Part shown: positions 15,513 through 36,517 of the stretch, one piece after another | Layout: the number at the start of each line of letters is the position of its first letter | How positions within the stretch are numbered: the first letter of the stretch is position 1 | Assembly (NCBI RefSeq): GCF_002572525.1 | Contig: NZ_PDBS01000001.1 | Span: forward strand, 3,038,001-3,102,000 | Direction: 5' to 3' | Source of the DNA: Natrinema sp. CBA1119 | GTDB lineage: Archaea > Halobacteriota > Halobacteria > Halobacteriales > Natrialbaceae | DNA length: 64,000 nt | Position numbers and translations under genes: made by a program | The notes under the pieces: generated by a model | Told to the model about the DNA's origin: nothing | The model's input: the letters and a program-made list of their open reading frames with translations, nothing else | Database searches by the model: none

Positions 15513-15695
15513 ATGTACCGCGCGATCCTCCCCGAAGGACAGATCGTCTGCGAGCGCTACGATCACACCGACGACGGACTCGAGCTATACGACGATGACG
15601 ACCGGTTCCTCGCGTTCGTTCCCTACAGTAACCTCCACGCGCTGCTCGACGAGGAGGTCTACGAGGAAGACGAGAAGGACCGCTCGATCATGTAG
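15513..15695 (+). CDS. conserved small acidic haloarchaeal protein, unknown
   Basis: This 60 aa protein starts MYRAILPEGQIVCERYDHTDDGLELYDDDDRFLAFVPYSNLHALLDEE. It is highly acidic and resembles small conserved haloarchaeal proteins. An in-frame ATG at 15486 would add nine residues (MLDANVRRR), but their basic character argues for the downstream start. It is divergent from the helicase gene. Its stop overlaps by 8 bp the 3' end of the convergent TFB gene. Function unknown. Confidence 0.7.
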   Translation: MYRAILPEGQIVCERYDHTDDGLELYDDDDRFLAFVPYSNLHALLDEEVYEEDEKDRSIM

Positions 15696-16647
15696 CCGGC
15701 TGCTGGTCGATCGCCTCGAGTTGCTCGCGATACCGGTTCCGGACGGTCACGACGGTCGTCTGGGCGGTGTCGGCGACCGCTCGCTGCGGAATGGTTTCGT
15801 CGCAGAGCAATCCGGCGGCGTAGATCGCCGCGGCGGCGAACCCGGTCGGTGACTTGCCCGAATGGAGCCCCTTTTCGGTCGTTAGATCGATGATCTCGAC
15901 GGCCTTGGTTTCGACGTCCTTGTCGACGTCTAGATCAGAGCAAAAGCGCGGGACGAACTGCCGAGGGTTCGTCGGCTCGAGGTTAATATCCAATTCGTCC
16001 GCAATGTAGCGATAGGTGCGACCGATCTCGCGTTGGTCGACGCGTGAAACCGACGTTACTTCCTCGAGGCTCCGCGGTATGTCCTCTTTACGACATGCGG
16101 TGTAGAGCGCGCTGGTCGCGACGCCCTCGATCGATCGGCCTCGGATGAGGTCCTGCTCGAGCGCCTGTCGATAGATGACGCTCGCGGTCTCCTTGACTGG
16201 CTTGGGGACGCCTAACGCGCTCACCATCCGGTCGATCTCGGAGAGGGCGTATTTGAGGTTTCGTTCGCCCGCGTTTTTCGTTCGAATTCGTTCCTGCCAG
16301 ACCCGAAGCCGGTGGAGCTGACCGTGTTTGTCGGCCGACATCGAGTGACCGTTCGCGTCCTTGTTGCGCCAATCGATGGTCGTTGTCAGCCCCCGATCGT
16401 GCATCGACTGGGTCAGGGGCGCGCCGACCCGCGAGAGTTCGTCGTGCTCCTGGGCGTTGAACGCTCGCCATTCCGGGCCGTAATCGATGGGGTCCTCGGT
16501 GAGAACGAGGCCGCATTCCTCACAGACCCGTTCGCCGCGGTCCGGATCGTGGACGATCGTATCGGTCTCACAGTCTGGACAGAGACCAGCCTCGACCGCC
16601 TCCGACTGCGATTCGGTGCTGGCGTGATCGATTATAGACCGCGTCAT
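15688..16647 (-). CDS. tfb: transcription initiation factor IIB (TFB)
   Basis: This 319 aa general transcription factor recruits RNA polymerase to TBP-bound promoters. It has an N-terminal zinc ribbon (Cys23, Cys26, Cys42, Cys45) and a B-reader-like segment (DYGPEWRAFNAQE, then SRVGAPLTQSMHDRGLTTTIDW). Two cyclin folds follow, the second ending TQTTVVTVRNRYREQLEAI. The length is standard. Haloarchaea carry several tfb genes that steer different promoter sets. Which paralog this is cannot be told here. Confidence 0.96.
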   Translation of the reverse strand: MTRSIIDHASTESQSEAVEAGLCPDCETDTIVHDPDRGERVCEECGLVLTEDPIDYGPEWRAFNAQEHDELSRVGAPLTQSMHDRGLTTTIDWRNKDANGHSMSADKHGQLHRLRVWQERIRTKNAGERNLKYALSEIDRMVSALGVPKPVKETASVIYRQALEQDLIRGRSIEGVATSALYTACRKEDIPRSLEEVTSVSRVDQREIGRTYRYIADELDINLEPTNPRQFVPRFCSDLDVDKDVETKAVEIIDLTTEKGLHSGKSPTGFAAAAIYAAGLLCDETIPQRAVADTAQTTVVTVRNRYREQLEAIDQQPAT

Positions 16648-17468
16648 CAGTATCCGACCGAAACCGTGCAGTCACTGTAAGGGGTTCACATGGTTTCGCA
16701 GGAAACACCGACTTACCATTCTGACGCCTGACTGTCAGGAAGTGTATTCACCGGATGGGTTCGGGGAGCATCTACGTAACAGCCAGTAAGGAGTCCCGTC
16801 GCCGACGCTAAACCGAGCGGCGACGACGACCGACGCGACCGTCACTCTCGAGCAAACAACCGTGACGGTCGCGTCGAGACCGTGTCCCATCGGTCGTATC
16901 CGGGCGAAACGGCCGTCACCGGTCGCTTCGACCCACATAGGTTCGTGTGATCATACTACATGAAATGCGGGGATAGTCGACTCGAGCAATCGGCGTAAAT
17001 CCCTCTATTCGACGTGTAAACCAGTCGTTCGTGTGTGAACTGTCGATCGACTTTATATCCGATCGGCCGAACGATCGGTATCGCTGCCGTGTTGTCACTC
17101 AGTTCCCCGAGTCGCGCCGGTATCAGATCCGTTCTCGGCCCGCGTCTCCGTACCCTGTCGATACGCGCCCACAATCGATCGGTACCGACCGACTTCGCCG
17201 GCGACCGAGAGCGGCCGTCACGACGGCGAGAAGTCACCACTGAGACTCCCTCCGGAAGCCGCTCCGTACGTCCTTTGCAGCCGGTGCGAAACGTGGCCGT
17301 TTTTAAGAGTATCTCCGTTGGTGTTCAACTTGGTGTGTCAAACGTGATTCGGATCCGCCGTTCGAACGTACAGCGGTCACCGTCGAGCCGATGCTCTGGT
17401 GGCTTTTCCTGCCGTGCACTGGGGACAACGAACGCGAATGGGGTCGCTACGATCGGAGGGTCGCGATA
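16648..17468. other. long intergenic region with a perfect 15 bp hairpin
   Basis: No convincing gene is present in these 820 bp between the divergent tfb and DUF7344 genes. The only strong structure is an inverted repeat at 16831-16845 and 16862-16876 (GACGCGACCGTCAC core, 16 nt loop). The part nearest 17469 probably contains the promoter of the DUF7344 gene. The short open frames here are arginine- and serine-rich and not supported. Confidence 0.5.
16831..16876. repeat. perfect inverted repeat, 15 bp arms
   Basis: The arms CGACGCGACCGTCAC and GTGACGGTCGCGTCG are separated by a 16 nt loop containing CTCGAG. The stem is very G+C-rich and would be stable in RNA. It lies about 185 bp upstream of tfb and 590 bp upstream of the DUF7344 gene. 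Function unknown. Confidence 0.6.
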
Positions 17469-18062
17469 ATGTCGTCGGTAGACACGTCACTTCCGGATGA
17501 GATCGCCTCGGTCACCGACGAGACGGACGAGCGGCTCTCGAAGGACGTCATTTTCGAGCTCTTAAAGAATCGCCGTCGGCGCGAAGTCCTCGCGTACCTC
17601 CTGGACGCCGACGAAACGGTGACGCTCGGCGAGCTCGCGGAACAGATCGCCGCCTGGGAGAACGACACTGATATCAACGCCCTCAGCTCCGACCAGCGAA
17701 AACGAGTCTACGTCGCCCTCTATCAGACCCATCTTCCGAAGATGGACGACGCTGGTATCGTCGAGTACGACCAGGACCGAGGGTTGATCTCGCTGGCGGA
17801 CAACGCCGACCTGTTGATGATGTACCTCGATACGGATACCCATCGACAGGATCGGTGGGATCGGTGGTATGCGGGGCTTAGCGTGGCCGGGGCGTCCCTT
17901 ATCGGTGCGGCGTTCCTCGGGATCCCGCTCCTGTCGGCCGTGCCGATGACTGCCCTCGCCGGCCTCGTCGTCGCCGCCTTTTTCTGCCTCTCGAGCGCTC
18001 ACGTCGTTCGGAACCGCCATCACGAACGCAACGTCGACGGAAAGCTCTCCCGTATCGAGTAA
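17469..18062 (+). CDS. DUF7344-type winged-helix membrane protein (paralog 1 of 3)
   Basis: This 197 aa protein has a winged-helix domain: SKDVIFELLKNRRRREVLAYLLDADETVTLGELAEQIAAWEND, then KRVYVALYQTHLPKMDDAGIVEYDQDRGLI. Two C-terminal membrane helices lie at about residues 137-175, and the short tail is basic. This DNA-binding head plus membrane anchor is the haloarchaeal DUF7344 layout. I chose ATG 17469, because the residues before it (MLWWLFLPCTG) look non-coding. Paralogs sit at 48654 and 52713. Role unknown; a membrane-tethered regulator is the obvious inference. Confidence 0.8.
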   Translation: MSSVDTSLPDEIASVTDETDERLSKDVIFELLKNRRRREVLAYLLDADETVTLGELAEQIAAWENDTDINALSSDQRKRVYVALYQTHLPKMDDAGIVEYDQDRGLISLADNADLLMMYLDTDTHRQDRWDRWYAGLSVAGASLIGAAFLGIPLLSAVPMTALAGLVVAAFFCLSSAHVVRNRHHERNVDGKLSRIE

Positions 18063-18809: not shown

Positions 18810-18890
18810 CTATAGTAGCCACTGAACGTCACTCTACACCTGATCGCACGATTGCGTTGCGATCAGTATGTAACTCGTTTCAGTGGCTAT
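18810..18890. mobile_element. MITE-like palindromic repeat, copy with degraded right end
   Basis: The left arm CTATAGTAGCCACTGA is intact. The inner pair TACACCTGATCG and CGATCAGTATGTA is present. The right arm TTTCAGTGGCTATA lacks the final bases. It lies about 170 bp upstream of the asparagine-synthase-like gene. Confidence 0.72.
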
Positions 18891-19056
18891 ACCGGCTCGA
18901 GTCGACTGCCTCGCGGGCGAACGCCCCGAGACGGTAGTCGATCGATCAGAACCTCGTGCTTCAGGTCGGTTACGGCCGATCACCGCATTCGGTAGCCCGG
19001 ATCTGGCCATCGTAAACGTGGCCATTACTATGACGCTGACTATCACATCTTCTAAT

Positions 19057-20883
19057 ATGGTTGGCATCACCGGGCGAACGCCGGATGCAGACGACGGATC
19101 GTTCGCCGGATCGCTCGAGCCACTCGTTCACACGGATCGGTACGAGGCCAACGTGGTCCTCGAATCGGCGTCTCGTTCGGTCGGGACGACGGCGTACCCC
19201 GAGTATCCGATCCGGATCGTCGAGAACGACGAGTACTGGGTCTGTCTCGAGGGCCGGATCTACGACCGCGACGACGAGACGCTCGAACGCGAACTCCTCG
19301 AGGTTGCGGCACACGTGCTCGCGGCCGACGGCGACGACGAGTTCCTGACCGAGTGGCTACTCGAGACCGACGGCGAGTTCCTGCTCGTCGCCGCCGACAA
19401 GGAAACCGACCGGCTCGGCTTGCTCAACGATCCGCTCGCTCGGCTGCCGACGTACTACTTCCACGACGGAGAGACGTTTCTGTTCTCGCGGGAACTGCGC
19501 TATCTCATCAACGAGGCGCCGATCGAGGGGTTCGCTCCGATGGGCGTCGCTCAGTGTCTCCTCTTTGGCTACTCGCTGGGCGACCGGACGCTGATCGACG
19601 GGGCGAACCGGCTGCGTCCGGGGACGAAACTCACCATCGATCCGGAGCGCGGCGCGGTCACGGAGACGACGCTCCACCGGTTCGACTTCGGTGAGCCGGC
19701 CTACGCGGATCGAAGCCGATCGCGAAACGCTGCCGAACTCGTCGATCGGTTCGAACGGGCCTGCCGCCAGCGATCGGGCGACGGTACTCGTGACGTAATT
19801 TCGTTGAGCGGGGGGCTCGACTCGCGGTCCGTGCTGGCCGGGTACCACGCAGAGGGGATCCCGACGACTGCGGCAACGATGGCCTCCGACGAGTTCGTAC
19901 CGCCGTCCGACGTCGAACTCGCTCGAGAGTTGGCCGAGACGTTCGATATCGACTGGCAGCGCTACGATGTCGGGCCGCCCAACGGGTCGGATCTGGACCG
20001 AATCATCAAGACGAAAAACGGACAGATCGGTCTTTTGACCTCGTTTATCCTCGATTTCTTCAGGCAGCTTCGCGAGGAGTACGACGCCGGTCTCACTTAC
20101 GTCACCGGCGACGGCGGGGACAAGGTGCTCCCCGATCTCACTCCCGCGACATCGATCGACGACGAATCGGCGCTGGTCGACTACGTCATCGCGGAAAACT
20201 GCTTTCTCTCGCTCGAGGAGGTGGCCCAGATTACGGGGCTCTCCGTGGACGCGATTCGGCGGAGCGTTCGTGAGCGGCTCCGACTGTACCCCGAGACCGA
20301 TCCCGCCTCGAAGTACGTCCACTTCCTCGTCTACGAGCGCGGCGTCAACTTCCTGTTCGAGGGCGAGGACCGGAATCGATTCTTCTTCTGGAGTACGACC
20401 CCGTTTTACTCGATCGACTTCTTCCGGTACGCGATGAACTGCCCGCCCGAGCAGAAGACTCGGTACAACCTCTATCGGTCGTTCCTCACGGAACTCGCGC
20501 CCGCTGCCGCGGCGCTGACTCATCCCGATTACGGCGTCCCGGTCGCCTCGACCCGCCACGAGGCCGCGGCGTTCGTCGACGATCTGCTGTCGCGATATCC
20601 ACGGGTGTTCGATGTCTTGCGACCGATCATTAAATCGCTCAACGGTCTCGAGACGGAGTCCCAACTGAGACCGAGCACGGTCGACTGCATTCGAACGCAG
20701 ATCGAACAGTGCGGGGCCGTCGACGACGTGCTCTCGACCGACGAACTCCACGCGTTCCTCGACGCACACGCGGACCGCGATCGGGTGTCGGTCTACCGTC
20801 TCTTCGCGCTCACCTCGCTTATCGACGATATTCACTCCACGGAGAGCGTCCTCGAGTCACGGCGGGATGTCGTCTTCGGGTGA
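19057..20883 (+). CDS. asparagine-synthase-like enzyme lacking the N-terminal cysteine
   Basis: This 608 aa protein has an N-terminal Ntn-hydrolase-like domain (about 1-200, including LLNDPLARLPTYYFHDGETFLFSRELR). An adenylating PP-loop domain follows, with LSGGLDSR at residues 250-257. The start MVGITG aligns with the usual MCGIAG of glutamine-hydrolysing enzymes, but the catalytic Cys2 is Val. The glutaminase is therefore probably dead, and the enzyme would use ammonia or another amine. It has a sizeable C-terminal extension. It lies among surface-glycan and exported-protein genes, so amidation of a sugar acid or of a surface molecule is more likely than asparagine synthesis. The residues upstream of 19057 overlap a MITE and are not coding. 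Confidence 0.82.
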   Translation: MVGITGRTPDADDGSFAGSLEPLVHTDRYEANVVLESASRSVGTTAYPEYPIRIVENDEYWVCLEGRIYDRDDETLERELLEVAAHVLAADGDDEFLTEWLLETDGEFLLVAADKETDRLGLLNDPLARLPTYYFHDGETFLFSRELRYLINEAPIEGFAPMGVAQCLLFGYSLGDRTLIDGANRLRPGTKLTIDPERGAVTETTLHRFDFGEPAYADRSRSRNAAELVDRFERACRQRSGDGTRDVISLSGGLDSRSVLAGYHAEGIPTTAATMASDEFVPPSDVELARELAETFDIDWQRYDVGPPNGSDLDRIIKTKNGQIGLLTSFILDFFRQLREEYDAGLTYVTGDGGDKVLPDLTPATSIDDESALVDYVIAENCFLSLEEVAQITGLSVDAIRRSVRERLRLYPETDPASKYVHFLVYERGVNFLFEGEDRNRFFFWSTTPFYSIDFFRYAMNCPPEQKTRYNLYRSFLTELAPAAAALTHPDYGVPVASTRHEAAAFVDDLLSRYPRVFDVLRPIIKSLNGLETESQLRPSTVDCIRTQIEQCGAVDDVLSTDELHAFLDAHADRDRVSVYRLFALTSLIDDIHSTESVLESRRDVVFG

Positions 20884-21171
20884 CTGTCTCGCTTGCCTGT
20901 TCGACAGGCGAATAGTTAGGTCACAATTCTGGAGTACGTGTTTGTTCCCCCGCTTCTGACAGTTGCGAAACTGCTACTGTCTTTATACAAAACTTGAAGC
21001 TAATAAATATATATGCCACCCCGCCGCAGCCGTCTGGTTTTTAATATAAGAAACCGTGATTAGACTGTATAATTAGAGAAAATATCTACAGTGATATAAT
21101 GAAAATCACAAAATCTTACTGATAGTGAGGCAGGAAAGTTTATGGTCTGGTAGTGTTCTCTCTCAGATCGC
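20884..21171. promoter_or_regulatory. AT-rich promoter region of beta-helix paralog 1
   Basis: This is 288 bp of markedly A+T-rich DNA with several runs of TATAT and AAAATC. GGAAAGTTTATGG at 21133-21145 ends 26 nt before the ATG at 21172 and is shared with the two other beta-helix genes. I take it as the TATA element of a leaderless transcript. Confidence 0.6.
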
Positions 21172-23217
21172 ATGGCACGCGACGAACCGGTACGGGACGC
21201 AGACGGTCCCGCCGAACCGACAGTCAGTGACGACGAACAGAGCGAAGACAGCATACTCGACCGGCGATCGTACCTGAAGTTAGCCAGCGCAACGGCCGTC
21301 GCAGCGGGCGTCGGGACGAGCGCGGCGAGCGCGGCCGAGGGTGACTACGAAGTCATCGAGGCGCGCGGCCAGTCGATCAGGATCGATTCGGGCGAGACCT
21401 GGGAGAACAAACTCATCGACTTCGGCGATCGAAACAACATCACGATCACCGCCAAGGGATCGAACTGGACGATCCGGAACATCGGCTTTACGGGCACTAT
21501 TCCCTACAACGAGACCATTTTCGGGGTCTGCGATTCCGGCTCCGGAACGTCGGTGATGGAGAACGTCTACTTCGGCGAATCGACCGGCGAACAGCCAAGC
21601 GGCGAGCGCTCGATCTGTATCTGGGTCGATCCCAGCCACTCGGGGCACCTCGACGTGACGAACGTCAACTTCAACGTTCCCGGAAACAACGGTATCTACG
21701 GCTCCGCGCCCGCCTACAACGGCGACGGCGGGACGATCGCACTCGAGGGCTGTTACGGTAACGACTGCCATCACACCGCGTTTCGAATCGGTGACTGTGG
21801 CATGTCCATCGAGAACTGCGTGAGTTACAAGAGCGGGACGCGCGCGGCGAACCGCAACATCTGGGTCTGGGAAGGCAACTACGGCGGCGGCGCGACCGTC
21901 CGCAACTCCCATTTCATTACGAACGGTACGGGCGGCTCGGTTGTAACGAACGGGAGTCCGAACCTGACACTCGATAACGTCCACACCGACGACGGCCGCG
22001 GCGACGGCTCGAACCCGCAACACTTCGTCCCCGACGGCTGTCCGGAAAGCGGTGCGGAAGCGGCGAGCGGTGGGAGCGCCGGAAGCGGCGGGGGCTCCTC
22101 GAGCCCGCCCGCGGACAATGAGGACAGTGAGGACGAGGACCTCCCCGAGAACACCCTGACGGTCACCGGGACCGGTGACGCGACGGAGTACTACGTCGAG
22201 ACTACCGACGAACTCGTCGCCGATCCGAACGCCGGCTCGCTCGAGGTTCACGACGAAATTACTGGCACGAGCGCGTCCGGCTGGGTGACGACGTCGTCCC
22301 ACGTCGATGGCTTCCGCTTCGCCGGCGACCTCCACGAGGTCGCGTTCCGACAGGGCTCGGCCCGCGTCGAGGTCAACGGCGAGGTGATCGACCCCGATCA
22401 GTACAACGGCGATCAACCGAGCCTCGAGAACACGCTACTGGTCGACGGGATCGGCACCGCGGGCGGAACGAGCTACGAGTTCACGGTCTCGGGGGCCGTC
22501 GAAAAGGCGACCGTCGAGGGAGCCACGATCGACGACGAGGACGCCATCGACGGCGGCCACGTCTCGGGCGGCGTCGCCGGCTGGCGCGACGGCTTCCGCT
22601 TCGGCGGCGAACTCGAGGAGCTCACCGTCGACGGCGATGCGCGCGTGCTCGTCAACGGCGAGGCGGTCGATCCGGCCGACTACGGTCAGGAGCAGCCACA
22701 CGTGTTGACGCTGGTTGGCAACGGGTCGGCCGCGAACTACGAGATCACGGTCGACGGCACGATCGATACGGTCGACGGCGACGATTCGGAGGACTACGCG
22801 ACGGTATCCTCCGGAACCACGGTCGAGGGATCGATCGAACGTAGCGCTCAGCGCTTCCGGTTCTCCGGGACGCTCACCGACGTCACCTTCATCGACGGCT
22901 CGGCGCACGTCTACCTCGACGACCGGCGAATCGACCCCGATCAGTACGGCGAGCAGGAACTGCTCCCCAACGCCATCGTGATCGACGGTGCCGGCACCGA
23001 CGGCGAGACGAACTACTCCTTCGAGATCGACGGCGAGGTCGTCACCGCGAGCTACCGCGACGCGTCGATCGACCCTGGCGACGAGATCGACGGCCGATCC
23101 GTCAGCGGCAGCGTCGACGACGAACTGGACGCCTACTGGTTCGACGGCGACATCACGGACTTCCGGCTCAGCGGGAACGCGAGCGTCGACGTCCAGTACA
23201 ACGCCCGAAGCAACTGA
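21172..23217 (+). CDS. Tat-exported beta-helix protein with four C-terminal repeats (paralog 1 of 3)
   Basis: This is a 681 aa exported protein. A twin-arginine signal (Arg31-Arg32 in DRRSYLKL, hydrophobic core to about residue 54) follows an acidic N-tail. Residues about 57-290 look like a right-handed parallel beta helix (NWTIRNIGFTGTI, VMENVYFGES, VTNVNFNVPGNNGIY, MSIENCVSYK). A Gly/Ser/acidic linker (about 295-330) leads to four repeats of 80-90 residues, each with LxVDGxGT, FRFxGxL, VxVNGxxVDPxxYG. The last ends FDGDITDFRLSGNASVDVQYNA. No anchor is visible, so it is probably secreted or surface-bound. Paralogs are at 24691 and 27132. The substrate is unknown; such helices often bind or cut polysaccharides, but no catalytic residues can be assigned. 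Confidence 0.8.
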   Translation: MARDEPVRDADGPAEPTVSDDEQSEDSILDRRSYLKLASATAVAAGVGTSAASAAEGDYEVIEARGQSIRIDSGETWENKLIDFGDRNNITITAKGSNWTIRNIGFTGTIPYNETIFGVCDSGSGTSVMENVYFGESTGEQPSGERSICIWVDPSHSGHLDVTNVNFNVPGNNGIYGSAPAYNGDGGTIALEGCYGNDCHHTAFRIGDCGMSIENCVSYKSGTRAANRNIWVWEGNYGGGATVRNSHFITNGTGGSVVTNGSPNLTLDNVHTDDGRGDGSNPQHFVPDGCPESGAEAASGGSAGSGGGSSSPPADNEDSEDEDLPENTLTVTGTGDATEYYVETTDELVADPNAGSLEVHDEITGTSASGWVTTSSHVDGFRFAGDLHEVAFRQGSARVEVNGEVIDPDQYNGDQPSLENTLLVDGIGTAGGTSYEFTVSGAVEKATVEGATIDDEDAIDGGHVSGGVAGWRDGFRFGGELEELTVDGDARVLVNGEAVDPADYGQEQPHVLTLVGNGSAANYEITVDGTIDTVDGDDSEDYATVSSGTTVEGSIERSAQRFRFSGTLTDVTFIDGSAHVYLDDRRIDPDQYGEQELLPNAIVIDGAGTDGETNYSFEIDGEVVTASYRDASIDPGDEIDGRSVSGSVDDELDAYWFDGDITDFRLSGNASVDVQYNARSN

Positions 23218-23323
23218 CCGGTCTCGACCGGTTTTGCTGACGGAATCGCGGCTCGAGACGATCGCGTTCGGAACCTGCGCGCGATCGCGTTCGCGATAGC
23301 GGTCGCCATTGTTCGCCGCAGGT

Positions 23324-24484
23324 TCAGACCGTATCCGCCCGGATCGGATCGCTCGACGGGCGATCGGCCCCCTCGGTCGACTCGAGTGCGGTGCGACAGA
23401 CCCGCTCGAAGCGTTCAGCCTGGGCGGTCCAGCGAAACGCGTGTGCGTCTTCGCGAGCCTGCGCACCGAGGCGCGACCGGAGCGAGGGGGAGTCCACGAG
23501 CATCGTCAGCTTGTCCGCGAGATCCTGGGGATCGCCGACGCGGGCCAGCAGACCGTTTTCCCCGTTGGACAGGTAGGTCCCGATCCCCTCGAGATCGGTC
23601 GTGACGACCGGGAGGCCACAAGCCATCGCTTCCAGGTTCGCCATCCCGAAACTCTCCTTGTGGCTTGGGAGACAGAACACGTCGGCTCCGGCGTGGTACG
23701 CCGGGAGGTCAGGGTGGGGAACCTCGCCGTGGCAGACGACGTCGTCGTCAATCCCGAGGGCCGCGGCCCGATCCCGAATCCGGGTGCGTTCGCCCCGCCC
23801 GACGAAGTGGAGTTCCTGCCGTCCGTCGAGGGCCGCGACCGCCTCGAGCAGGTCGTCGATCCCCTTCGATTCGACGAGTCGGCCGACGAACAAGATTGCC
23901 GGGTCGTCGCTCTCGAACGCGGGCTCGATACCGGGCCGAAACGCCTCGGGATCGATGCCGGGCGCGATAACGCCCTCGAAGTCGTAGCCGAACGTCTCGG
24001 TGAGCTTCTGGGCGGTATCCGGCGAGTTGGCAAGCAGCAGGTCCGTTTGCGAAAACCGGTCGCGAAGCCAGGCCGCCGGAGAGCGGTCCGAGGCCTTGTG
24101 AAACGTGTAGACGGTCGGCACGTCGACGAGGTTCGAGAGGAGCAGGTCGTCCAGAAACTGGGACGTACAGAGCACGTCGAGCCGTTCGTTCATCTGATCG
24201 ATGACGTCGTTACGGGCCGCCCACAGCGTCATCAGGAACTTCTTGCGGTTCTGGGTCCCGAGGGGGTTGATCGGATCAGTTACCCGAGAGGGATGGTCGT
24301 CGAACGACGGGGTCTCGACGATTCGCACGTCCGACTCGAGCAACACGGGGGAGAGCTCACCGCGTCTGGTGTACAGCGTCACGTCGTTCGTCTCGCTGAG
24401 TTCGACCGCCATCCGCTGCGTGTAGACGGCGATCCCCCCGGCGTGGCGCGTGCCCGCCGCGTCGTGATAGAACCCGATGTGCAT
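23324..24484 (-). CDS. glycosyltransferase family 4 (GT-B) enzyme
   Basis: This 386 aa GT-B transferase starts MHIGFYHDAAGTRHAGGIAVYTQRMAVELSE with a glycine-rich acceptor loop. The C-terminal donor site reads PAILFVGRLVESKGIDDLLEA, then PSHKESFGMANLEAMACGLPVVTTDLEG, which contains the EX7E motif of GT4. I chose the ATG at 24484 because an ATAACAAA box lies 25 nt upstream and the family begins here. It lies between two beta-helix paralogs, so its product may involve the same surface structure. Donor and acceptor are unknown. Confidence 0.88.
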   Translation of the reverse strand: MHIGFYHDAAGTRHAGGIAVYTQRMAVELSETNDVTLYTRRGELSPVLLESDVRIVETPSFDDHPSRVTDPINPLGTQNRKKFLMTLWAARNDVIDQMNERLDVLCTSQFLDDLLLSNLVDVPTVYTFHKASDRSPAAWLRDRFSQTDLLLANSPDTAQKLTETFGYDFEGVIAPGIDPEAFRPGIEPAFESDDPAILFVGRLVESKGIDDLLEAVAALDGRQELHFVGRGERTRIRDRAAALGIDDDVVCHGEVPHPDLPAYHAGADVFCLPSHKESFGMANLEAMACGLPVVTTDLEGIGTYLSNGENGLLARVGDPQDLADKLTMLVDSPSLRSRLGAQAREDAHAFRWTAQAERFERVCRTALESTEGADRPSSDPIRADTV

Positions 24485-24509
24485 ACGACAGTAGACGCAT
24501 ATCAACTGG

Positions 24510-24517
24510 TTTGTTAT
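24510..24517 (-). promoter_or_regulatory. ATAACAAA box upstream of the GT4 gene
   Basis: ATAACAAA on the minus strand, 25 nt before the ATG at 24484, at TATA-box position for a leaderless transcript. The final G of the consensus is C here. Confidence 0.6.
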
Positions 24518-24690
24518 TACGCTCGTACCGACAGTACAACCCGCCTATCTCTCCCGCTGGATGTCTGATATGGGACTTTGCGGCGTGAGAATCCGAGCCG
24601 CGGTCGGGTCGCTCGGCGCGTTCGAGCCTCGCCACTCGAGCAACGGCGAGGGAGCGAAACGGGAAAATCGAGTCGTATTATGGAGTCGTA

Positions 24691-26508
24691 TCAGTGATCG
24701 CGCGCGTTGTACTGGACGTCGACGCTCGCGTTGCCGCGGAGCTGGAAGTCCGTGATGTCGCCGTCGAACCAGTAGGCGTCGAGCCAGTTGCCGACGGCGC
24801 CGCGAACGGCTCGACCCTCGATCACGTCTTCGTCGTCGATCGAGGCGTTCCGGTACTCCGACTTGACGACCGCGCCGTCGACCTCGAGGGAGTACGTGCT
24901 CGGTCCGCCGGCGTCGACGCCGTCGATCACGAGGGCGTGTGGAAGCAGTTCGTGTTCTCCGTACTCGCTCGGATCAATCGATTCGCCGTCGACCGTCACA
25001 TCCGCCGCGCCGTCGCTGAACGTGAGGTCCGTCAGCGCACCCGAGAATCGGAAGGATTGGGTTTCGTCGGTGAGCGAACTCTGAACCGTCGACCCCGAGA
25101 CCGTCGTCGCGTCCGCTTCCGGCTGCGCGTCCGACGCGAGCTCAATCGATCCGTCAACCGTGATCTCGTAGCTCGTCGGCGTCCCCTGTCCCGCGACCTC
25201 GAGGACGTGTGGAAGCTGTTGCCCGACGTCGGCCGGATCGACCGCCTCGCCGTTGACGAATACCGTTCCGGGGCCGTCGACGGTGAGTTCGGCGAGGTCG
25301 CCGTCGAACCGGAAGGCGTCCTTCCAGTCGGCCACGCCCCCCTGCACGGTCGCGCCGTCGATGGTGTCCTCGTCGTCGATCGAGGCTCCCTCGTAGTTGG
25401 TGTGTTCGATCGCACCGTCGACCGTGAACTCGTATCGGGTCGCGTCCGACGGATCGCCGTCGACCAGGAGGACGTTCGGCAGTTGCGAGCCCTCCTCGTT
25501 GCTCGTCGCCTCGTCGTTGGCTCCGCCGCTCGAGCCGGCCGATTCGGTTCCCGATGCGGCCGCCTCGGGCGACGTCGGGACGCCGTCGGGGATCGAGAGA
25601 TCGGGCTCCCTCGAGACGTCGTTGCCGATGGAGACCGTGGAACCGTTTGCCTCCCGGATCTGTCCGCGATAGCCGCCGCTCTGGAAGTCGACGCTGCCCG
25701 CGGAACCGTTCGCGCCGGCCACGAGCGAGTACGGGTAGGGGCCGTCGGCGAAGTGCGAGTCGCGGATGGTTACGGTACCGCCGTTCCAGACCCAGACGGG
25801 GCGGCCGTTGGTCTCGCCGTAGCCGCCGTAGCCGCGCCCGTAGTCAGTATCGTCGTTGTAGGCGACGCAGTCGATGATTTCGTCGTCCTCGCTGCCACAG
25901 CGGAAGGTGGTAACGCCGTTGTTCTTGCCGAAACAGCGCTCGAATCGGACGCTGCCGCCGTACGGCGTGTTGGAACAGTAAAAGCCGTTGTTCGGGTATC
26001 CCTGGACGTTGCAGTTGCGGAAGGTGAGGTCCGCTTCGCTTCCTCGGTGCATGAATACGGCACCGGGCCCGTGAACGAAGCTCGCGCCTTCCTTCGTCGC
26101 GCCGTCGCCCAGATAAATGTTCTCGAAGAGGATGTCTCCCTGCCCGGCGTTGATCGAGATCATGAACGAGTCCCCGCGATAGAGACCTTTGAAACCGATA
26201 TTCCGAACCGCCGAGTCGGCTCCCTCGACCATGATCAGGAAACTCTCACCGGTCGTGAGGTCGATCAGTTTGTTTTCGTACGTTTCGCCGCGGTTGACCG
26301 TCACCGTCTGCCCGCGCGCCTCGACGACTTCGTAGTCATCTTCGACGGCGCTCGCGGCTCCAGTTAGCGTCGCGGCCGCCGTCGTCGCACCGGCCAGCTT
26401 CATATACGATCGCCGGTGTAGTAATTTCTCGTTACCGCCTTCGTCGGTCGCCTCCGCGTCGGTGGAGACGGACGACTCGTCGTCCAGTACCGAAGGGTCG
26501 CGTGCCAT
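24691..26508 (-). CDS. Tat-exported beta-helix protein with three C-terminal repeats (paralog 2 of 3)
   Basis: This 605 aa protein has the same plan as the one at 21172. A twin-arginine signal (HRRSYMKLAG, Arg32-Arg33) follows an acidic N-tail. The beta-helix part (AVRNIGFKGLYRGD, LFENIYLGDGAT, LTFRNCNVQGYPNNGFYCS) comes next. The linker starts DGVPTSPEAAASG. Three repeats of 80-90 residues close the protein, ending FDGDITDFQLRGNASVDVQYNA. It has one repeat fewer than paralog 1. It reads toward the GT4 gene on the same strand. Its promoter carries CATAAACTTTCC (minus-strand GGAAAGTTTATG) 26 nt upstream. It is probably a secreted or surface protein of unknown role. Confidence 0.8.
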   Translation of the reverse strand: MARDPSVLDDESSVSTDAEATDEGGNEKLLHRRSYMKLAGATTAAATLTGAASAVEDDYEVVEARGQTVTVNRGETYENKLIDLTTGESFLIMVEGADSAVRNIGFKGLYRGDSFMISINAGQGDILFENIYLGDGATKEGASFVHGPGAVFMHRGSEADLTFRNCNVQGYPNNGFYCSNTPYGGSVRFERCFGKNNGVTTFRCGSEDDEIIDCVAYNDDTDYGRGYGGYGETNGRPVWVWNGGTVTIRDSHFADGPYPYSLVAGANGSAGSVDFQSGGYRGQIREANGSTVSIGNDVSREPDLSIPDGVPTSPEAAASGTESAGSSGGANDEATSNEEGSQLPNVLLVDGDPSDATRYEFTVDGAIEHTNYEGASIDDEDTIDGATVQGGVADWKDAFRFDGDLAELTVDGPGTVFVNGEAVDPADVGQQLPHVLEVAGQGTPTSYEITVDGSIELASDAQPEADATTVSGSTVQSSLTDETQSFRFSGALTDLTFSDGAADVTVDGESIDPSEYGEHELLPHALVIDGVDAGGPSTYSLEVDGAVVKSEYRNASIDDEDVIEGRAVRGAVGNWLDAYWFDGDITDFQLRGNASVDVQYNARDH

Positions 26509-26534
26509 GCAATCAGGTAATTAGATACTACCGG

Positions 26535-26546
26535 CATAAACTTTCC
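26535..26546 (-). promoter_or_regulatory. shared TATA-like box of the beta-helix genes (paralog 2)
   Basis: GGAAAGTTTATG on the minus strand, 26 nt before the ATG at 26508. The same spacing is seen at 21133-21145 and 28109-28121 for the other two paralogs. Confidence 0.65.
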
Positions 26547-26722
26547 GCATTTCTGCCCTTAAAATTTACAGACTGTATCTCTTCCCTGCACTATTACTAA
26601 AAGTTTGAGTGGTTTTTAGCTTCGGAATTATATGTGCGGAACATTCTCGTTTTCGTATCGGTATACTCGTATTACCAGGAAACGGGCGCCGAAAGCCGGT
26701 TGATTCTGGATGTCCGTCGCCG

Positions 26723-26737
26723 GTAATACGATATTAC
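26723..26737. promoter_or_regulatory. perfect palindrome GTAATA-CGA-TATTAC, candidate operator
   Basis: A 6-3-6 perfect palindrome 215 bp upstream of the paralog 2 start. Its centre is 62 bp from that of a weaker match (26661-26675), close to a whole number of helical turns. A palindrome of the same form lies at 28374-28388. Confidence 0.5.
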
Positions 26738-26848
26738 TTTGCAGCGACACTCCGACGACCCCCGGAAGAAGCGATCGTCTACAACCGTTTTGTCTCTCGA
26801 GAAACGGATCCCTCGAATCCGGACGCAAAACCACCTCCTGCGGACTGT

Positions 26849-26884
26849 GCGATCAGCGGGGAATCGTTTCGGTGACTACTATAG
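26849..26884. mobile_element. MITE-like repeat, right-end fragment abutting a full copy
   Basis: CGATCAGCGGGGAATCG followed by TTTCGGTGACTACTATAG is a diverged right arm. Its last bases CTATAG are also the first bases of the next copy. GCGGACTGTGCGATC at its left edge also precedes the right arm of the array-bearing copy at 18422. Confidence 0.6.
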
Positions 26885-26963
26885 TAGCCACTGAAACGGA
26901 TTAACACTGATCGCAACGCCGTTATGCGATCAGGTGTGCAGTGACTTGCAGTGGCTACTATAT
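26879..26963. mobile_element. MITE-like palindromic repeat, nearly complete copy
   Basis: This 85 bp copy has left arm CTATAGTAGCCACTGAAA, inner pair ACACTGATCGC and GCGATCAGGTGTG, and right arm GCAGTGGCTACTATA. It lies between the divergently regulated flanks of beta-helix paralogs 2 and 3. Confidence 0.75.
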
Positions 26964-27131
26964 ACTCCTCATCGGAGACGGCTCGAGTCTGTGACAACCG
27001 TCGAACGAGAAGTGAATACGGCGAGAGTGTGCCAGTGCGGATCGCGGGAGGGGGAAGCAACGATCCGCACTGTGGAGGAAGGGCGCGTCAGCGGGGAACG
27101 GAACGTGTGGAGGGATGCGTCAGCGGCGGAT

Positions 27132-28082
27132 TCAGTTCGAAGCGCCCGATGCGGCGGCTTCGGGGGAGGTTGGAACGCCATCCGGGATGACTGCCTCGGG
27201 ATCGGTACCGACGCCGTCGCCCAGTTGGACGCTCGAACCTGCTTCTTCGGAGATGCCGGCACCCTCGTCGTAGTCGGAGTTCGTCACGGAGACCTGGGTA
27301 GGGCTTCCGTTCGCACCGGCGACGATGGCGGAGTTCTGGCCGTTCATCTCGATCTGGCAGTTGTCGACCTCGATCGTCCCGGGGGCCCACGCCCAGATTC
27401 CGCGGCCGACGTAGCCCTCGCTGGCGTCGACGGAGACGCTGGAATTGGTCACCTTGCTGCCTTCGGTGGCCAGTCGGAAGTGCGAGACATAGCAGTTCGC
27501 GGCGAAACTGCTGTCGATGTGGATCGTACCGCCGCCCTTGTTGCCGGGTGCGGAGGCGTAGATTGCGTTGTCCGCGAAGTTCTGGATGTTGACGTTTTTG
27601 AAGTCGATGTGACCGGAGTGGTCGGGAGCGACCCAGAAAGCGGTCTGGCCGTGCCCGTTCGGGTTACCGTTACCCGTACTCGAGCCGTCGCCGAGGTAGA
27701 CGTTTTCGACGGTACAGGTCCCGCCGGCGGTGTCGGAGATACCGAAGGTGGCGGAGCCGGTGCCGGAGGTATTCTTGCCCTTGAATCCGATATTTCGGAT
27801 CGTCCAGTCGCTGCTGTGGGCCGTGACGATGATGTCCTGTCCGGTCGTCATGTCGATGAGTTTGTTCTCCCAGGTCTCACCGGAGCCGATGGTAATCGTC
27901 TGTCCCTCGGCTTCGATGACCTCGTAGTCGTCCTGGGCCGAGGCTGCACCGGCACCGCCGAGTGCGGTCGCCGCGGTCGCCACCGCGGCGAACGAGCGAA
28001 CGTAGTTACGGCGGGTTAATCCGGAATTTCGGCCTGTCGTCGGAGCGGATTCCGTTTCGGACGTACGGGGATTCTGCGCCAT
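27132..28082 (-). CDS. Tat-exported beta-helix protein without C-terminal repeats (paralog 3 of 3)
   Basis: This 316 aa protein has a twin-arginine signal (LTRRNYVRSFAAVATAATALG) and a beta-helix part closely matching the paralogs (DYEVIEAEGQTITIGSGETWENKLIDM, WTIRNIGFKGKN, CTVENVYLGDGS). It ends at DGVPTSPEAAASGASN, exactly where the linker to the repeats begins in paralog 2. It is therefore either the ancestral short form or one that lost the repeats cleanly. I chose ATG 28082 over the ATG at 28100 because the shared promoter box lies 26 nt upstream of it. Confidence 0.8.
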   Translation of the reverse strand: MAQNPRTSETESAPTTGRNSGLTRRNYVRSFAAVATAATALGGAGAASAQDDYEVIEAEGQTITIGSGETWENKLIDMTTGQDIIVTAHSSDWTIRNIGFKGKNTSGTGSATFGISDTAGGTCTVENVYLGDGSSTGNGNPNGHGQTAFWVAPDHSGHIDFKNVNIQNFADNAIYASAPGNKGGGTIHIDSSFAANCYVSHFRLATEGSKVTNSSVSVDASEGYVGRGIWAWAPGTIEVDNCQIEMNGQNSAIVAGANGSPTQVSVTNSDYDEGAGISEEAGSSVQLGDGVGTDPEAVIPDGVPTSPEAAASGASN

Positions 28083-28108
28083 ACATTTTCGTAACACCAT
28101 CTTACGCC

Positions 28109-28121
28109 CATAAACTTTTCC
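28109..28121 (-). promoter_or_regulatory. shared TATA-like box of the beta-helix genes (paralog 3)
   Basis: GGAAAAGTTTATG on the minus strand, 26 nt before the ATG at 28082, matching the position of the same box before the other two paralogs. Confidence 0.65.
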
Positions 28122-28735: not shown

Positions 28736-30526
28736 CTACGGTGCGCTATCGATCGCGTACATCTCGAAGTCGTCGTTCGAAATGACCTTGTTCGCACCCG
28801 GCTCGGTGTCGAGTGCCTCGAGGGCCCTCCTGTCGTAGTTGAGTTCACGGTAGACGTCGAGTTCCCGCGACTCGTCCCAGTCGGTGACGACGAAGTAGTA
28901 CTCGTCGGTGGGATAAGCCCCGCTGTAGTTCCCCTCCGAAAACACGGTGGCGTTGACGGAGCCGGTCGCGGCCGACGCGCCGCTGATCGTGTCGCCGCCG
29001 GAAACCCCGTTGATGCCGTGGTCGTATCGATAGGGGTCGTATCCCATCCCCGCGTAGGGGACGTCCTCGGCCCCGTGATCGAACCCGTCCTCGTAACCGC
29101 TCATCATTTCGCCGGTCACATGCTGGCCCGGGTTGTAGATCAGCGGCGACGTGAACACCGTCATGAGCCCGAGGACGAGACACGCCCCGAGTACCAACGC
29201 CGTGACTGCATTCGCGCCCGGTCTCGTGATCACGCTCGAGAGGCCGCCCACGAGCCCTGCGAGGGCGATGCCGGCCAGGATCGTCAGGAGCACATATATG
29301 AACCCCATCTGCCGGAACGCCATCGTGGGCGTCCCGAGGAAGTAGACGAGAAACATCGCGGAGAGCGGGAACAGCGCGAACGCGAAGTAGTTGACGAGGG
29401 ATTTGGTCTCCCCGTCCAGGCTCGTCCGGCCGAGCCAGACGACCAGGATGAAACAGCCGACGACGAGGCCGATGATCGCCGCGTCGAGGAACATCTTCAC
29501 GAACAACTCGGTGAGGCTGCCACCGATCTCGGTCAACGACGTCCCCCGCTGGTCGACTTCGGTGCCGCCGCCGATATCCTGTGCGAGCAACCCGGTGACG
29601 AGGCCGCCGACGGCCTGCCTGAACCGCTCGTTGCCGAGCGCCCAGAGCCCGAAGAGGGCCCCGAGGGAGAGCGTGTGAACGTAGGTCGTCGGATGCTCGA
29701 GCATCGGGTGGTCGTCGTAGCGCCGGCGGGCGAGATACTGGACGCCGCTGATCGCGCCAATGAGAACGACGACATTGAACATCTGCTGGGGATGCACCAA
29801 CAAGAGCGCAAGGCCGGTGAGAAAGATGAGGACACTGAACGGCGACACGTCGAGCGGGAGTCGCTCGAGCGTCGAGCGCCGGTGGAGGTAGGCGACGATC
29901 GCGAAGAGCACGGGCGGAACGAGGAACAGCGCGTTCGAGTTGGTGTGAACGCCCATGTGCGTCGCGATGTTGTTGATCGGCAGCACCATCCAGGAGACGA
30001 TCGCGGCGAGGCCAACCGCCAGCCCGTCGCCGGTCATATCGCGGACGACGAGCGGGACGAAGATGACGAAGGGGACGAAGAGGACGACCATCCCGATCAG
30101 GAGCCCCCGTTCGATCGAGGCACCGCCGGCGAAGTGCAGGACCGTCGCGATAGCGTGGAGTCCCGGATAGAAGAGTTCGTGCGGCGCGGTTCCGCCGGTG
30201 ACGATGTCGCGCGTCCACCCGAGGTGCGTGAGTGCGTCGCCCATTCCGGCGAACCGATAGTTCCTGAGTATCGGGAGGCTCACGATGGCCGTGACCGTCA
30301 GTCCCCCGAGACCGATTCCGAGTCCCTGCTGACGGCCGCGACAGGACAGGGTCACCCCCACCGCGACCGCGAGCGCGAGTGCGAACCCGATCCAGGAGAC
30401 CGTCGGAGCGCCCGCGTAGACCGACGGCTCGTAGGCGGTCGCGGGGTTCGCCCTCGCCACGAGGATCCCCATCGCAACCGCAAGAAAGCCGATTGCGACC
30501 GTCACGTTGAGCGTCGATCGTCTCAT
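28736..30526 (-). CDS. polytopic membrane protein, GT-C glycosyltransferase-like
   Basis: This 596 aa protein has about twelve hydrophobic segments and a soluble C-terminal part of roughly 130 residues (from GQHVTGEMMSGYEDGF to the end). The first external loop contains FAGMGDALTHLGWTRDIVTGG, with an acidic Gly-Asp motif as in GT-C transferases. The third region has FYPGLHAIATVLHF. This suggests a lipid-linked-sugar transferase, or an oligosaccharide-handling protein such as those with ArnT/PMT-like topology. The family is not certain. The start is fixed by an in-frame stop immediately upstream. An ATAACAAA box lies 71 nt upstream. Confidence 0.7.
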   Translation of the reverse strand: MRRSTLNVTVAIGFLAVAMGILVARANPATAYEPSVYAGAPTVSWIGFALALAVAVGVTLSCRGRQQGLGIGLGGLTVTAIVSLPILRNYRFAGMGDALTHLGWTRDIVTGGTAPHELFYPGLHAIATVLHFAGGASIERGLLIGMVVLFVPFVIFVPLVVRDMTGDGLAVGLAAIVSWMVLPINNIATHMGVHTNSNALFLVPPVLFAIVAYLHRRSTLERLPLDVSPFSVLIFLTGLALLLVHPQQMFNVVVLIGAISGVQYLARRRYDDHPMLEHPTTYVHTLSLGALFGLWALGNERFRQAVGGLVTGLLAQDIGGGTEVDQRGTSLTEIGGSLTELFVKMFLDAAIIGLVVGCFILVVWLGRTSLDGETKSLVNYFAFALFPLSAMFLVYFLGTPTMAFRQMGFIYVLLTILAGIALAGLVGGLSSVITRPGANAVTALVLGACLVLGLMTVFTSPLIYNPGQHVTGEMMSGYEDGFDHGAEDVPYAGMGYDPYRYDHGINGVSGGDTISGASAATGSVNATVFSEGNYSGAYPTDEYYFVVTDWDESRELDVYRELNYDRRALEALDTEPGANKVISNDDFEMYAIDSAP

Positions 30527-30781: not shown

Positions 30782-32089
30782 ATGTCATCCATCATCATCG
30801 ACGAGATCTCAACTCACGAGGCGACTCTCGAGTGTTCGGTCCGCAGCGCTGCCGACCTCGAGCGATTCTTCACCGACGAATCGTTTCGGACCAGCTACGA
30901 CGTTCCGATCGGGGACGTTCCCGAGGGCGTGCTCGCGATCCCCGTCCTCGCGCAGGTCTGTCCGGTCGCGTGGGCCAACGGAGCCGACGTCTACGTCGAC
31001 GAGGTCGACGCGACGTTCGCCCGCGCGCTCGAGAACGTAAAAGAGTCGCTGTGTGACATGCACGACTTCCTCGAGGGCGGGACGCTCTACGCGCGCCGAA
31101 CTATCGAACCGGAACCGGACGCGACCGCCGAGAGCGGCCTGCTGTTCACCGGCGGCGTCGACTCGACGTGCTCGTACGTCCGCCACCGCGAGGAGTCGCC
31201 GACGCTGATCAGCGTTCGCGGCTGGACGATCACCCCGGACGCCGCCGACGACGGGAAGTGGAACGCCCTCCGCGAGCGCGTCTCGGGCTTCGCCGCTGAC
31301 CACGACTGCGAGACGGCGTTCGTCGAGTCGAACATGCTCTCTTTCCTCGATCATCCCATGCTGTTGGCCCACTACAAGCGCTACGTCGACGGCGGCTGGT
31401 ACAGCTCCGTGGGTCACGGGCTGGGACTGCTCGGGCTCTGCGCACCGATGGCCTACGCGCGCGGAATGGAAGACCTCTACGTCGCCGCGACTCACTGGGA
31501 CGGGATCGACCTCGAGTGGGGTTCTCGCCCCGACATCGACGAGCACGTCCGATGGGCCGGGACGCGGTGTCACCACGACGCCTACGAACTCACCCGGCAG
31601 GAACGCCTCGACGTCATCGCCGACTACGTCCGCGATGAGGATCCCGAACTGCAACTCCAGACCTGTAACGACCGCATGGACGGTAACTGCGGCGAGTGCG
31701 AGAAGTGTTATCGAACGGCGGTCGGCCTTCGCCTGTCAGGCCTCGAGCCGTCGAACCACGGCTATCCGTTCTCGGACGCGGACTACCGCGACCTCCGTCG
31801 CTCCCTCGAGCGCGGCGAGTGGGTGCTCGGGCAGGACGAGCGCCACATGTGGGCCGACATCCGCGAGCGCGCGAGCGAGACCGAACCCGCGACGCCGGCC
31901 GAGCGAACCTTCTTCGAGTGGCTCGAAACCGCGGACCTGGCCGATCTGATATCGTCGTCCGGCTCGCCGCTGGTCCACCGACTCCTCTGGGCCGGCGCGC
32001 GAAACGCGCCGAACAGCGTCTACAACACCGTGTACCCGGCCTGGACGACGGCGAAAGCCGGCCTTCGACTCGTCCGATCCGGTCGATAG
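30782..32089 (+). CDS. PP-loop ATPase family protein (QueC-like) with a cysteine cluster
   Basis: This 435 aa protein has an N-HUP/PP-loop signature LLFTGGVDSTCSY (Gly124 to Ser128), which binds ATP to adenylate a carboxylate or similar group. Near the end of the core are Cys295 and C-GEC-EKC (Cys303, Cys306, Cys309), which look like a zinc site, as in 7-cyano-7-deazaguanine synthase. The N-terminal 110 residues and the C-terminal extension are not those of QueC, and no preQ0 genes are nearby. With the asparagine-synthase-like gene 10 kb upstream, it is one of two adenylating enzymes in the glycan region. A role in modifying a surface sugar is inferred. Confidence 0.72.
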   Translation: MSSIIIDEISTHEATLECSVRSAADLERFFTDESFRTSYDVPIGDVPEGVLAIPVLAQVCPVAWANGADVYVDEVDATFARALENVKESLCDMHDFLEGGTLYARRTIEPEPDATAESGLLFTGGVDSTCSYVRHREESPTLISVRGWTITPDAADDGKWNALRERVSGFAADHDCETAFVESNMLSFLDHPMLLAHYKRYVDGGWYSSVGHGLGLLGLCAPMAYARGMEDLYVAATHWDGIDLEWGSRPDIDEHVRWAGTRCHHDAYELTRQERLDVIADYVRDEDPELQLQTCNDRMDGNCGECEKCYRTAVGLRLSGLEPSNHGYPFSDADYRDLRRSLERGEWVLGQDERHMWADIRERASETEPATPAERTFFEWLETADLADLISSSGSPLVHRLLWAGARNAPNSVYNTVYPAWTTAKAGLRLVRSGR

Positions 32090-35572: not shown

Positions 35573-36517
35573 GTGGTGGATCCCGTGGGCAGCGTCGTAA
35601 TTTCCCTCGACGCCGAACTCGGCTGGGGATTTCACGATCTGGCCGATCCGCCGACCGAGCGGGTCGAGGCCGGTCGCCGCGGCTGGTCGGTCATGCTCGA
35701 GTTGTTCGAGGAGTTCGATATCCCGGCGACATGGGCCGTCGTCGGTCACCTCATGCTCGACGACTGCGACGGCGTCCACGCCGACCATCCGGCCCCCGAC
35801 GGCTGGTTCGACCGCGAGCGAACCGACTGGGCGGACCGCGATGACCTTCGATACGCCCCCGATCTCGTGACGGATCTCCTCGAGTCGGGCGCCGACCACG
35901 AGTTCGCCAGCCACTCCTTCTCGCACGCCCTGTTCGGCCGCCCGGAGACGGATCGCGAGTTCGCCGTCGCCGAACTCGAGCGCAGCCGCGAAATCGCGGC
36001 CGACTGGAACGAGTCGATCGACTCGTTCGTCTACCCGCGCAACGATATCGGCCACCGGGAGGTGCTGGCCGAGCAGGGCGTCTCGGCGTATCGGGGACGA
36101 TCACCGACGCGGGACGGCGTGCGCGGAATATTTGATTCGACGATTCGAGACCGGTCGATGCTGGTCGAACCGGCCGTCGACGAGTACGGGCTGGTCAACG
36201 TGCCGGCGTCGATGTTCCTCTTCGGGTTCGAGGGGCCGGCGCGGACGGTTGCCGAGTCGATCTGGACGGATCCGATGGTCGAACTGGCCCATAGCGGGAT
36301 CGACGAGGCGGCCCGGACCGACGGGCTCTTTCACATGTGGCTCCACCCGAACAACCTGACCCACGAGCGGGACGATCGCCGCATGCGGGCGATTCTCTCT
36401 CACCTCGAGCGCCGGCGGACCGCGACCGATCTCACGGTCGAGACGATGGGAGATGTTGCCCGCCGTGTCTCGGGATCGTCGCCGGTTACGGAGCAGGCGA
36501 CGGCGAGCTGGAAGTGA
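35573..36517 (+). CDS. polysaccharide deacetylase (NodB-like)
   Basis: This 314 aa carbohydrate esterase is predicted to remove N- or O-acetyl groups from sugars. Motif 1 is SLDAELGW, with Asp as base and metal ligand. Motif 2 is HEFASHSFSH with the two metal His. Later motifs are YPRNDIGH and HMWLHPNNL. The protein has no signal peptide, so it probably acts in the cytoplasm on a precursor. GTG 35573 is the most likely start, with GTG 35576 as an alternative. The gene is followed by the oxidoreductase/DUF362/epimerase operon on the same strand. Confidence 0.87.
   Translation: MVDPVGSVVISLDAELGWGFHDLADPPTERVEAGRRGWSVMLELFEEFDIPATWAVVGHLMLDDCDGVHADHPAPDGWFDRERTDWADRDDLRYAPDLVTDLLESGADHEFASHSFSHALFGRPETDREFAVAELERSREIAADWNESIDSFVYPRNDIGHREVLAEQGVSAYRGRSPTRDGVRGIFDSTIRDRSMLVEPAVDEYGLVNVPASMFLFGFEGPARTVAESIWTDPMVELAHSGIDEAARTDGLFHMWLHPNNLTHERDDRRMRAILSHLERRRTATDLTVETMGDVARRVSGSSPVTEQATASWK

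Follow-up and report, generated by a model that had tools for sequence, protein, structure and literature searches.

Genes and domain architecture

Three neighbouring genes in a 64,000-nucleotide stretch of the haloarchaeon Natrinema sp. CBA1119 (contig NZ_PDBS01000001.1, positions 3,038,001–3,102,000; host genome 5.06 Mb), hereafter the window, encode paralogous proteins with a twin-arginine translocation (Tat) type signal and a beta-helix part, followed in two of them by tandem copies of a repeat. Gene A (21172–23217, forward strand) encodes 681 amino acids (aa) with a Tat signal, beta-helix, linker and four repeats. Gene B (24691–26508, reverse strand, 605 aa) has the same parts with three repeats, and gene C (27132–28082, reverse strand, 316 aa) consists of a Tat signal and beta-helix without any repeat. 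Proteins A and B were 48% identical, A and C 43%. An earlier note, made from the letters alone, had claimed three adjacent Tat-type beta-helix paralogs with four, three and zero repeats, and the open reading frames, twin-arginine motifs and repeat profile all agreed with it.

Tat signals were judged from the sequence motif. The N-termini of A, B and C carried the motifs RRSYLKLA, RRSYMKLA and RRNYVRSF, each with a hydrophobic stretch and an AxA-like end, from which export is predicted. Both arginines were kept in 99% of 96 relatives. The putative signals lie at 21256–21333 in A (forward strand; LDRRSYLKLA...ASA) and at 26347–26424 in B (reverse strand; LLHRRSYMKLA...ASA). They are followed in all three proteins by (D/G)DYEV(I/V)EA(R/E)GQ, a slightly wider form of the common opening DYEVIEA(R/E)GQ given in the earlier note. 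The beta-helix part, whose ends are approximate, spans 21334–22071 in A (forward strand; alignment and model of B) and 25549–26346 in B (reverse strand; AlphaFold2 and structure comparison). No lipobox or C-terminal anchor was visible in the sequence of A or B, and none of the three proteins had a sortase-type C-terminus.

Protein C ends (...IPDGVPTSPEAAASGASN) at the exact point where B continues into its linker, in keeping with the earlier description of a clean stop. The longest frame of C begins at 28100; the start at 28082 was preferred because 32 nt separate it from the shared TATA box upstream, the spacing found in most B and C orthologs. A pseudogene or truncated copy of B was rejected as an explanation of C, as 38 of 39 relatives were repeat-free at 312–375 aa and no repeat remnant lay downstream.

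The nearest named record, Natrinema zhouii, shared 84% identity in B and 99% in the neighbouring transcription initiation factor IIB paralog (TFB). Its A gene appears as two adjacent frames (L136, 13773–15360), so that either the gene is broken or the sequence contains an error. The genome of strain CBA1119 encodes a further beta-helix paralog (L005, 1456–2877; G000:C6:70310–71179) in which a DUF7282 domain and a tail resembling a dockerin take the place of the repeats; it lies in a row with other proteins that have such tails.

The repeat and its predicted fold

The seven repeats of A and B were 82–93 residues long, with pairwise identities mostly of 25–65% and the invariant residues G, Y, G, F, G, G and V. 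Both arrays close with the common ending ...DGDITDFxLxGNASVDVQYNAR. The repeat length of 80–90 residues and the shared end reported earlier were borne out. A profile of the seven repeats found exactly four in A and three in B (E 1e-31 to 1e-38); it was built from these repeats and matches them by construction, but the pairwise identities are independent of it, and the repetition is far beyond chance. The profile had no match within or beside C. Elsewhere in the genome it found three single-domain proteins.

By profile and comparison of positions, the repeats of A (forward strand) lie at 22147–22419 (repeat 1, fourth from the C-terminus and an A-type extra copy), 22426–22698 (repeat 2, third from the C-terminus), 22696–22962 (repeat 3, second) and 22966–23214 (repeat 4, last, ending in VDVQYNARSN). 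Those of B (reverse strand) lie at 25213–25479 (repeat 1, third from the C-terminus), 24946–25212 (repeat 2, second) and 24694–24942 (repeat 3, last, ending in VDVQYNARDH).

Searches against Pfam, NCBIfam and the sequences of the Protein Data Bank (PDB) matched the repeat to no family, giving only sub-threshold noise (ThiS, S4, RodZ_C), and no paper describing it was found in the open-access literature. The repeat is a family undescribed in these collections, as the earlier note had supposed. AlphaFold2 modelled a single repeat (B repeat 1, from 130 sequences) as a compact nine-strand beta-sandwich (pLDDT 87.9, pTM 0.79), a fold common to many families. In the full-length model of B, the helix scored mostly above 90 and the repeats mostly 72–94 pLDDT, with a linker predicted to be disordered between them (model residues 269–287; 25480–25548, reverse strand). 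The orientation of the domains in B is unreliable, since this model had a pTM of 0.53.

Foldseek comparison of the repeat model with PDB and viral models returned nothing at E 0.001; the top weak matches were a CBM2 domain (E 0.09) and a non-cellulosomal archaeal cohesin (E 0.32). A second structural comparison reached a maximum Z of 4.7, with CBM2 and chitin-binding domains (3.6–4.5) tied with unrelated folds. Profiles of PKD, Ig and cohesin domains matched neither A nor B, and the repeat alignment matched no PDB sequence. A tryptophan at repeat column 52 was present only in part of the Natrialbaceae. In the genus g5 (L194–L197), the repeats at the same locus (WLTEGEAYGDDWAEWWLSGSDEARTVWEYTG) are rich in tryptophan and have diverged strongly. 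Viral contigs searched with one of the single-domain relatives yielded no relative, and on this search a virus origin was rejected.

Distribution and partners of the repeat

The repeat was detected in 204 of 292 Halobacteria genomes (approximately 70%), covering 65 of 77 genera. The 36 positive genomes of a sample drawn across the phylum all belonged to one order, and none of approximately 240 genomes outside that order matched the profile. Its partners outside the Natrialbaceae included several beta-helix subtypes, GH16, subtilase with GH26, VWA, PKD and malectin-bearing proteins, with pectate-lyase-like proteins among the carriers. Pfam Beta_helix was matched by 13 of 36 module-bearing proteins outside the family. 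The module occupied the N- or C-terminal end of its host protein, in arrays of 1–7 copies. Fusion at either end to GH16, GH26, VWA and beta-helix proteins is the pattern of an accessory module, and since it was shuffled onto so many protein types we regard it as mobile. By its sequence partners, the module appears to be mostly extracellular and no peculiarity of the A/B/C locus. The models and the distribution together suggest that it is most likely a haloarchaea-specific beta-sandwich accessory module. A study of haloarchaeal cellulose use described many long GH5 proteins with additional "yet undetectable domains" (PMC10267330).

The module also occurs in stand-alone proteins of approximately 100–140 aa with one repeat and no signal peptide, which are apparently cytoplasmic. 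Three are encoded in the genome of strain CBA1119 (G000:C1:2568706, C1:2285983 and C2:115555; L006–L008). Those on plasmids (L168–L173) often adjoin a PadR or other helix-turn-helix/winged-helix regulator. A PadR-family regulator resembling these partners is encoded at 50775–51050 of the window, and no single-domain protein was found beside it. In Haloterrigena and Natronorubrum (L166, L167), a stand-alone protein adjoins PP, a gene described below, within an A/B/C-type locus.

Such free-standing copies could serve as soluble partners if the repeat were a cohesin-like docking module that joins secreted beta-helix proteins to each other or to the S-layer glycoprotein. The second-ranked Foldseek match and the dockerin-like tails of the beta-helix paralog and its neighbours on contig C6 point the same way. 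However, the cohesin match was not significant, the tails sit on repeat-free proteins of another replicon, and no dockerin was seen in the A/B/C cluster. We consider docking quite improbable.

Evolution of the repeat array

In 53 A/B-type proteins, each of the last three repeats had its best foreign match at the same position counted from the C-terminus (159 of 159; 53, 53 and 53), across genera and also between A and B. Repeats within one protein shared a median identity of 39%. Given this positional matching at such low internal identity, the three-repeat array is old and position-locked, and its three positions may hold distinct roles. Extra copies were found only on the N-terminal side and between species (3–5 repeats in A-type proteins, up to 6 in L199). 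No DNA-level tandem array was present at the repeats in the window, so the repetition is old and at the protein level.

The earlier suggestion that copy number is under variation was not supported beyond these N-terminal additions between species. Slippage-driven change was rejected, given the lack of a DNA tandem array and the locked last three positions. Two records of Natrinema hispanicum had three repeats each; the sample otherwise covered essentially one genome per species.

The array could also be a structural spacer or stalk (Ig/PKD/FN3-like) that keeps the helix at a set distance in or over the S-layer and has no specific ligand. Tandem arrays of variable length, their occurrence alongside PKD domains, the lack of a conserved aromatic residue and the long disordered linker of B are all compatible with a stalk. 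A mere spacer is harder to reconcile with last repeats that are position-locked and diverged rather than homogenised, with arrays that are mostly terminal instead of lying between the helix and an anchor (none was seen), and with a module that also exists alone as a small protein. This explanation therefore seems to us somewhat unlikely.

The beta-helix part

Structural alignment of the B helix ranked PL6 lyases first (Z 19.6, 239 residues, rmsd 3.0), ahead of pectate lyases (Z 18.8), an alginate epimerase/lyase (18.6) and AlgE/AlgG epimerases (17.3–18.1). In total, 305 PDB chains had Z of at least 8. All top matches were right-handed helices, and the alignment gives the fold class and not the function; at the fold level, the helix part of B is modelled as a right-handed parallel beta-helix, and those of its paralogs A and C are predicted to be the same. 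The Pfam Beta_helix gathering score of 25.9 was not reached by C (22.0 bits) or B (10.5 bits). Profiles of the PL6/AlgE/AlgG type in Pfam and NCBIfam matched none of the three proteins, and neither A nor the B alignment matched a PDB sequence.

R203 and R227 (C numbering) lie one coil from each other and were invariant in 96 relatives, W230 and W232 were nearly invariant, and N73, N97 and N127 are spaced in a ladder-like manner. The two arginines are candidate catalytic residues. They argue against a non-enzymatic role of the helix parts, as adhesins or as glycan-binding structural scaffolds in the cell coat. So do the lyases and epimerases among the best structural matches and the GH16 and GH26 catalytic domains to which the same module is fused. 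An adhesin or scaffold would suit the alignment of the helix with PfbA, an adhesin of pneumococci (Z 18.0), as well as the lack of a Pfam enzyme family at the cut-off and of a confirmed catalytic set; on balance we think it unlikely.

Promoters of A, B and C

The element AAAGTTTAT occurred three times in the 64 kb of the window (0.03 expected), once upstream of each of the three genes: at 21135–21143 for A (forward strand), at 26536–26544 for B and at 28110–28118 for C (both reverse strand). In B and C it is followed by a palindrome, GGTAGTATCTAATTACC (26516–26532) and GTAAGATGGTGTTAC (28091–28105), respectively, giving promoter regions of 26516–26544 and 28091–28118. In relatives (L118–L165), TTTA was located 30–35 nt (typically 32) before the start codon in 29 of 30 C, 28 of 33 B and 13 of 16 A genes. 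The palindrome GTA-N9-TAC was found 20–30 nt before the start codon (23 in B and C) in 20 of 30 C, 29 of 33 B and 4 of 16 A genes. It preceded no gene among the 557 others in these loci.

Eight other genomes of the family gave 11 matches to the combined pattern, each, by coordinates, just upstream of C, B or another repeat gene, and no match to a reversed control pattern. A relaxed pattern gave five matches in the genome of strain CBA1119, two of which were B and C. The pattern was thus nearly exclusive to the A/B/C gene family in nine genomes. With the pattern so close to exclusive, the orthologs of B and C share a dedicated promoter that is conserved and has its palindrome at a fixed distance, which is a new finding. 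The likeness of the paralogs' promoters may be due in part to common descent.

Gene neighbourhood

The genes around A, B and C encode GT4 and GT2 glycosyltransferases, DegT aminotransferases, GFO/IDH/MocA proteins, an epimerase, a hexapeptide transferase, a polysaccharide deacetylase, FemAB/GNAT proteins and phosphodiesterases. This content identifies the surroundings as a surface-glycan cluster. Upstream of A lie two constant flanking genes, TFB (15688–16647, reverse strand) and REG, a DUF7344 protein (17391–18062, forward), as well as ASN, an AsnB-like amidotransferase (18883–20883, forward) that recurs next to repeat-bearing beta-helix genes. A GT4 glycosyltransferase (23324–24505, reverse) separates A from B. 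The constant neighbour of C is MEM (28736–30526, reverse), a hydrophobic, probably multi-pass membrane protein without a confident family. It is followed by PP (30782–32089, forward), a probable PP-loop ATP pyrophosphatase by its motif TGGVDSTCSY, read by eye, without a family match. A phosphodiesterase family protein (33726–35318, reverse) and a polysaccharide deacetylase family protein (35573–36517, forward) belong to the same cluster.

Most Natrialbaceae loci examined had the order HEL–TFB–REG, a variable interior, and C–MEM–PP. The interior contained B with three repeats, an A-type gene accompanied by the AsnB-like one, GT4, or further relatives with repeats in either orientation; C was nearly constant. 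In Haloterrigena and Natronorubrum, loci on plasmids kept the core order. Strain CBA1119 has, on another replicon (L201, 8451–11540; G000:C2:74453–76243), a further copy of MEM with 95% identity and a copy of PP that is apparently partly disrupted; neither B nor C lies alongside.

A MEM ortholog (E <1e-150) was present in 68 of 75 Natrialbaceae genomes. Each of the 68 also encoded a beta-helix protein with repeats. Strong profile matches revealed it in 64 of them, and the divergent tryptophan-rich repeat in the other 4 (genus g5); the seven genomes without that ortholog had no strong repeat match. The correlation is only suggestive because independent losses were few. Outside the family, homologs of the cluster, defined by BLAST to the window, were found at 16 of 20 repeat loci; among 20 control stretches taken from the same genomes, 5 had them (p 0.0012). 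The AsnB-like gene lay near seven repeat loci and no control (p 0.008). These loci were picked by repeat score, and some genomes gave two. The assignment of the neighbours to surface-glycan synthesis in the earlier note was in line with the gene content and the co-occurrence, and the gene context was conserved across the family.

Proposed function

We propose (probability roughly 45%) that A, B and C belong to the carbohydrate-active beta-helix proteins and act on the polysaccharide of the cell's own surface, the repeats serving for retention or binding. Exported pre-folded through the Tat pathway, the proteins would bind the polysaccharide made by the cluster and cleave it, epimerise it or modify it in another way. 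In favour of this are the alignment of the helix with lyases and epimerases, the two invariant arginines, the fusions of the module at either end of GH16, GH26, VWA and beta-helix proteins, the sandwich model with CBM2 and chitin-binding domains among its top weak matches, the conserved glycan cluster, the co-occurrence with MEM and the shared promoter. As no lipobox or C-terminal anchor was visible in A and B, we infer that three or more repeats behind a flexible linker might retain them on the surface glycan or matrix. C may act untethered, or together with MEM. The alternatives discussed above concern different parts of the proteins, and their probabilities need not sum to one.

Several observations weigh against this proposal. 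The repeat had neither a significant fold match to a carbohydrate-binding module nor a sequence match to profiles of such modules in the Pfam, NCBIfam and PDB searches, and no position of the exposed aromatic platform typical of CBM2 was conserved across the family. The module is also carried by subtilase and VWA proteins, and the signal-less, apparently cytoplasmic stand-alone copies are the main puzzle. Phage tailspikes and PfbA scored like enzymes in the helix alignment, and a shared helix fold is no proof of enzymatic activity. The architecture fits binding or retention, in line with the glycan-binding module suggested in the earlier note, but the aromatic residues and the signal-less copies give glycan binding no support.

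A broader form of the proposal would make the repeat a Halobacteria-wide ligand-binding module that holds enzymes on self-made glycans. The locus would then be a glycan-specific exchange site with constant flanks, swappable beta-helix proteins matched to the polysaccharide, and a palindromic operator read by the DUF7344 protein or TFB. We hold this form to be doubtful.

Many haloarchaeal secreted proteins carry the module, glycoside hydrolases among them, and giving it a name would allow the annotation of many stretches that are labelled "hypothetical" today. It would offer a testable approach to the question of how proteins that leave by the Tat pathway and have no visible anchor remain attached to archaeal cells. 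The surface-polysaccharide loci of the Natrialbaceae, which are little known, and their regulation would also become easier to define.

Comparison with known systems

A, B and C resemble PL6, PL1 and AlgE/AlgG proteins in the helix fold (approximately 210–240 residues aligned, Z 17–19.6), in predicted export and in glycan gene context. In contrast, they share 8–16% identity with them and match no Pfam enzyme family, any catalytic Lys/Arg and Ca2+ site in them is putative, and the known enzymes lack the repeat module. Like CBM2 and archaeal chitin-binding domains, the repeat is predicted to be a small beta-sandwich, often repeated and linked to secreted glycoside hydrolases, but it differs from them in lacking a sequence match and a family-wide aromatic platform, and the fold matches (E 0.09; Z 3.6–4.5) were not significant. 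PKD, Ig-like and cohesin domains likewise form tandem beta-sandwiches in similar archaeal secreted proteins, sometimes in the same chain; the repeat matches none of their profiles and, unlike them, also occurs as a lone signal-less protein. Bacterial exopolysaccharide/PEP-CTERM (XrtA) loci differ from the A/B/C locus, whose proteins have Tat motifs and no sortase-type C-terminus and whose scores to the respective models were far below the cut-off, but both combine an asparagine-synthase-like amidotransferase (weak TIGR03108) and GT4 glycosyltransferases with nearby genes for exported proteins.

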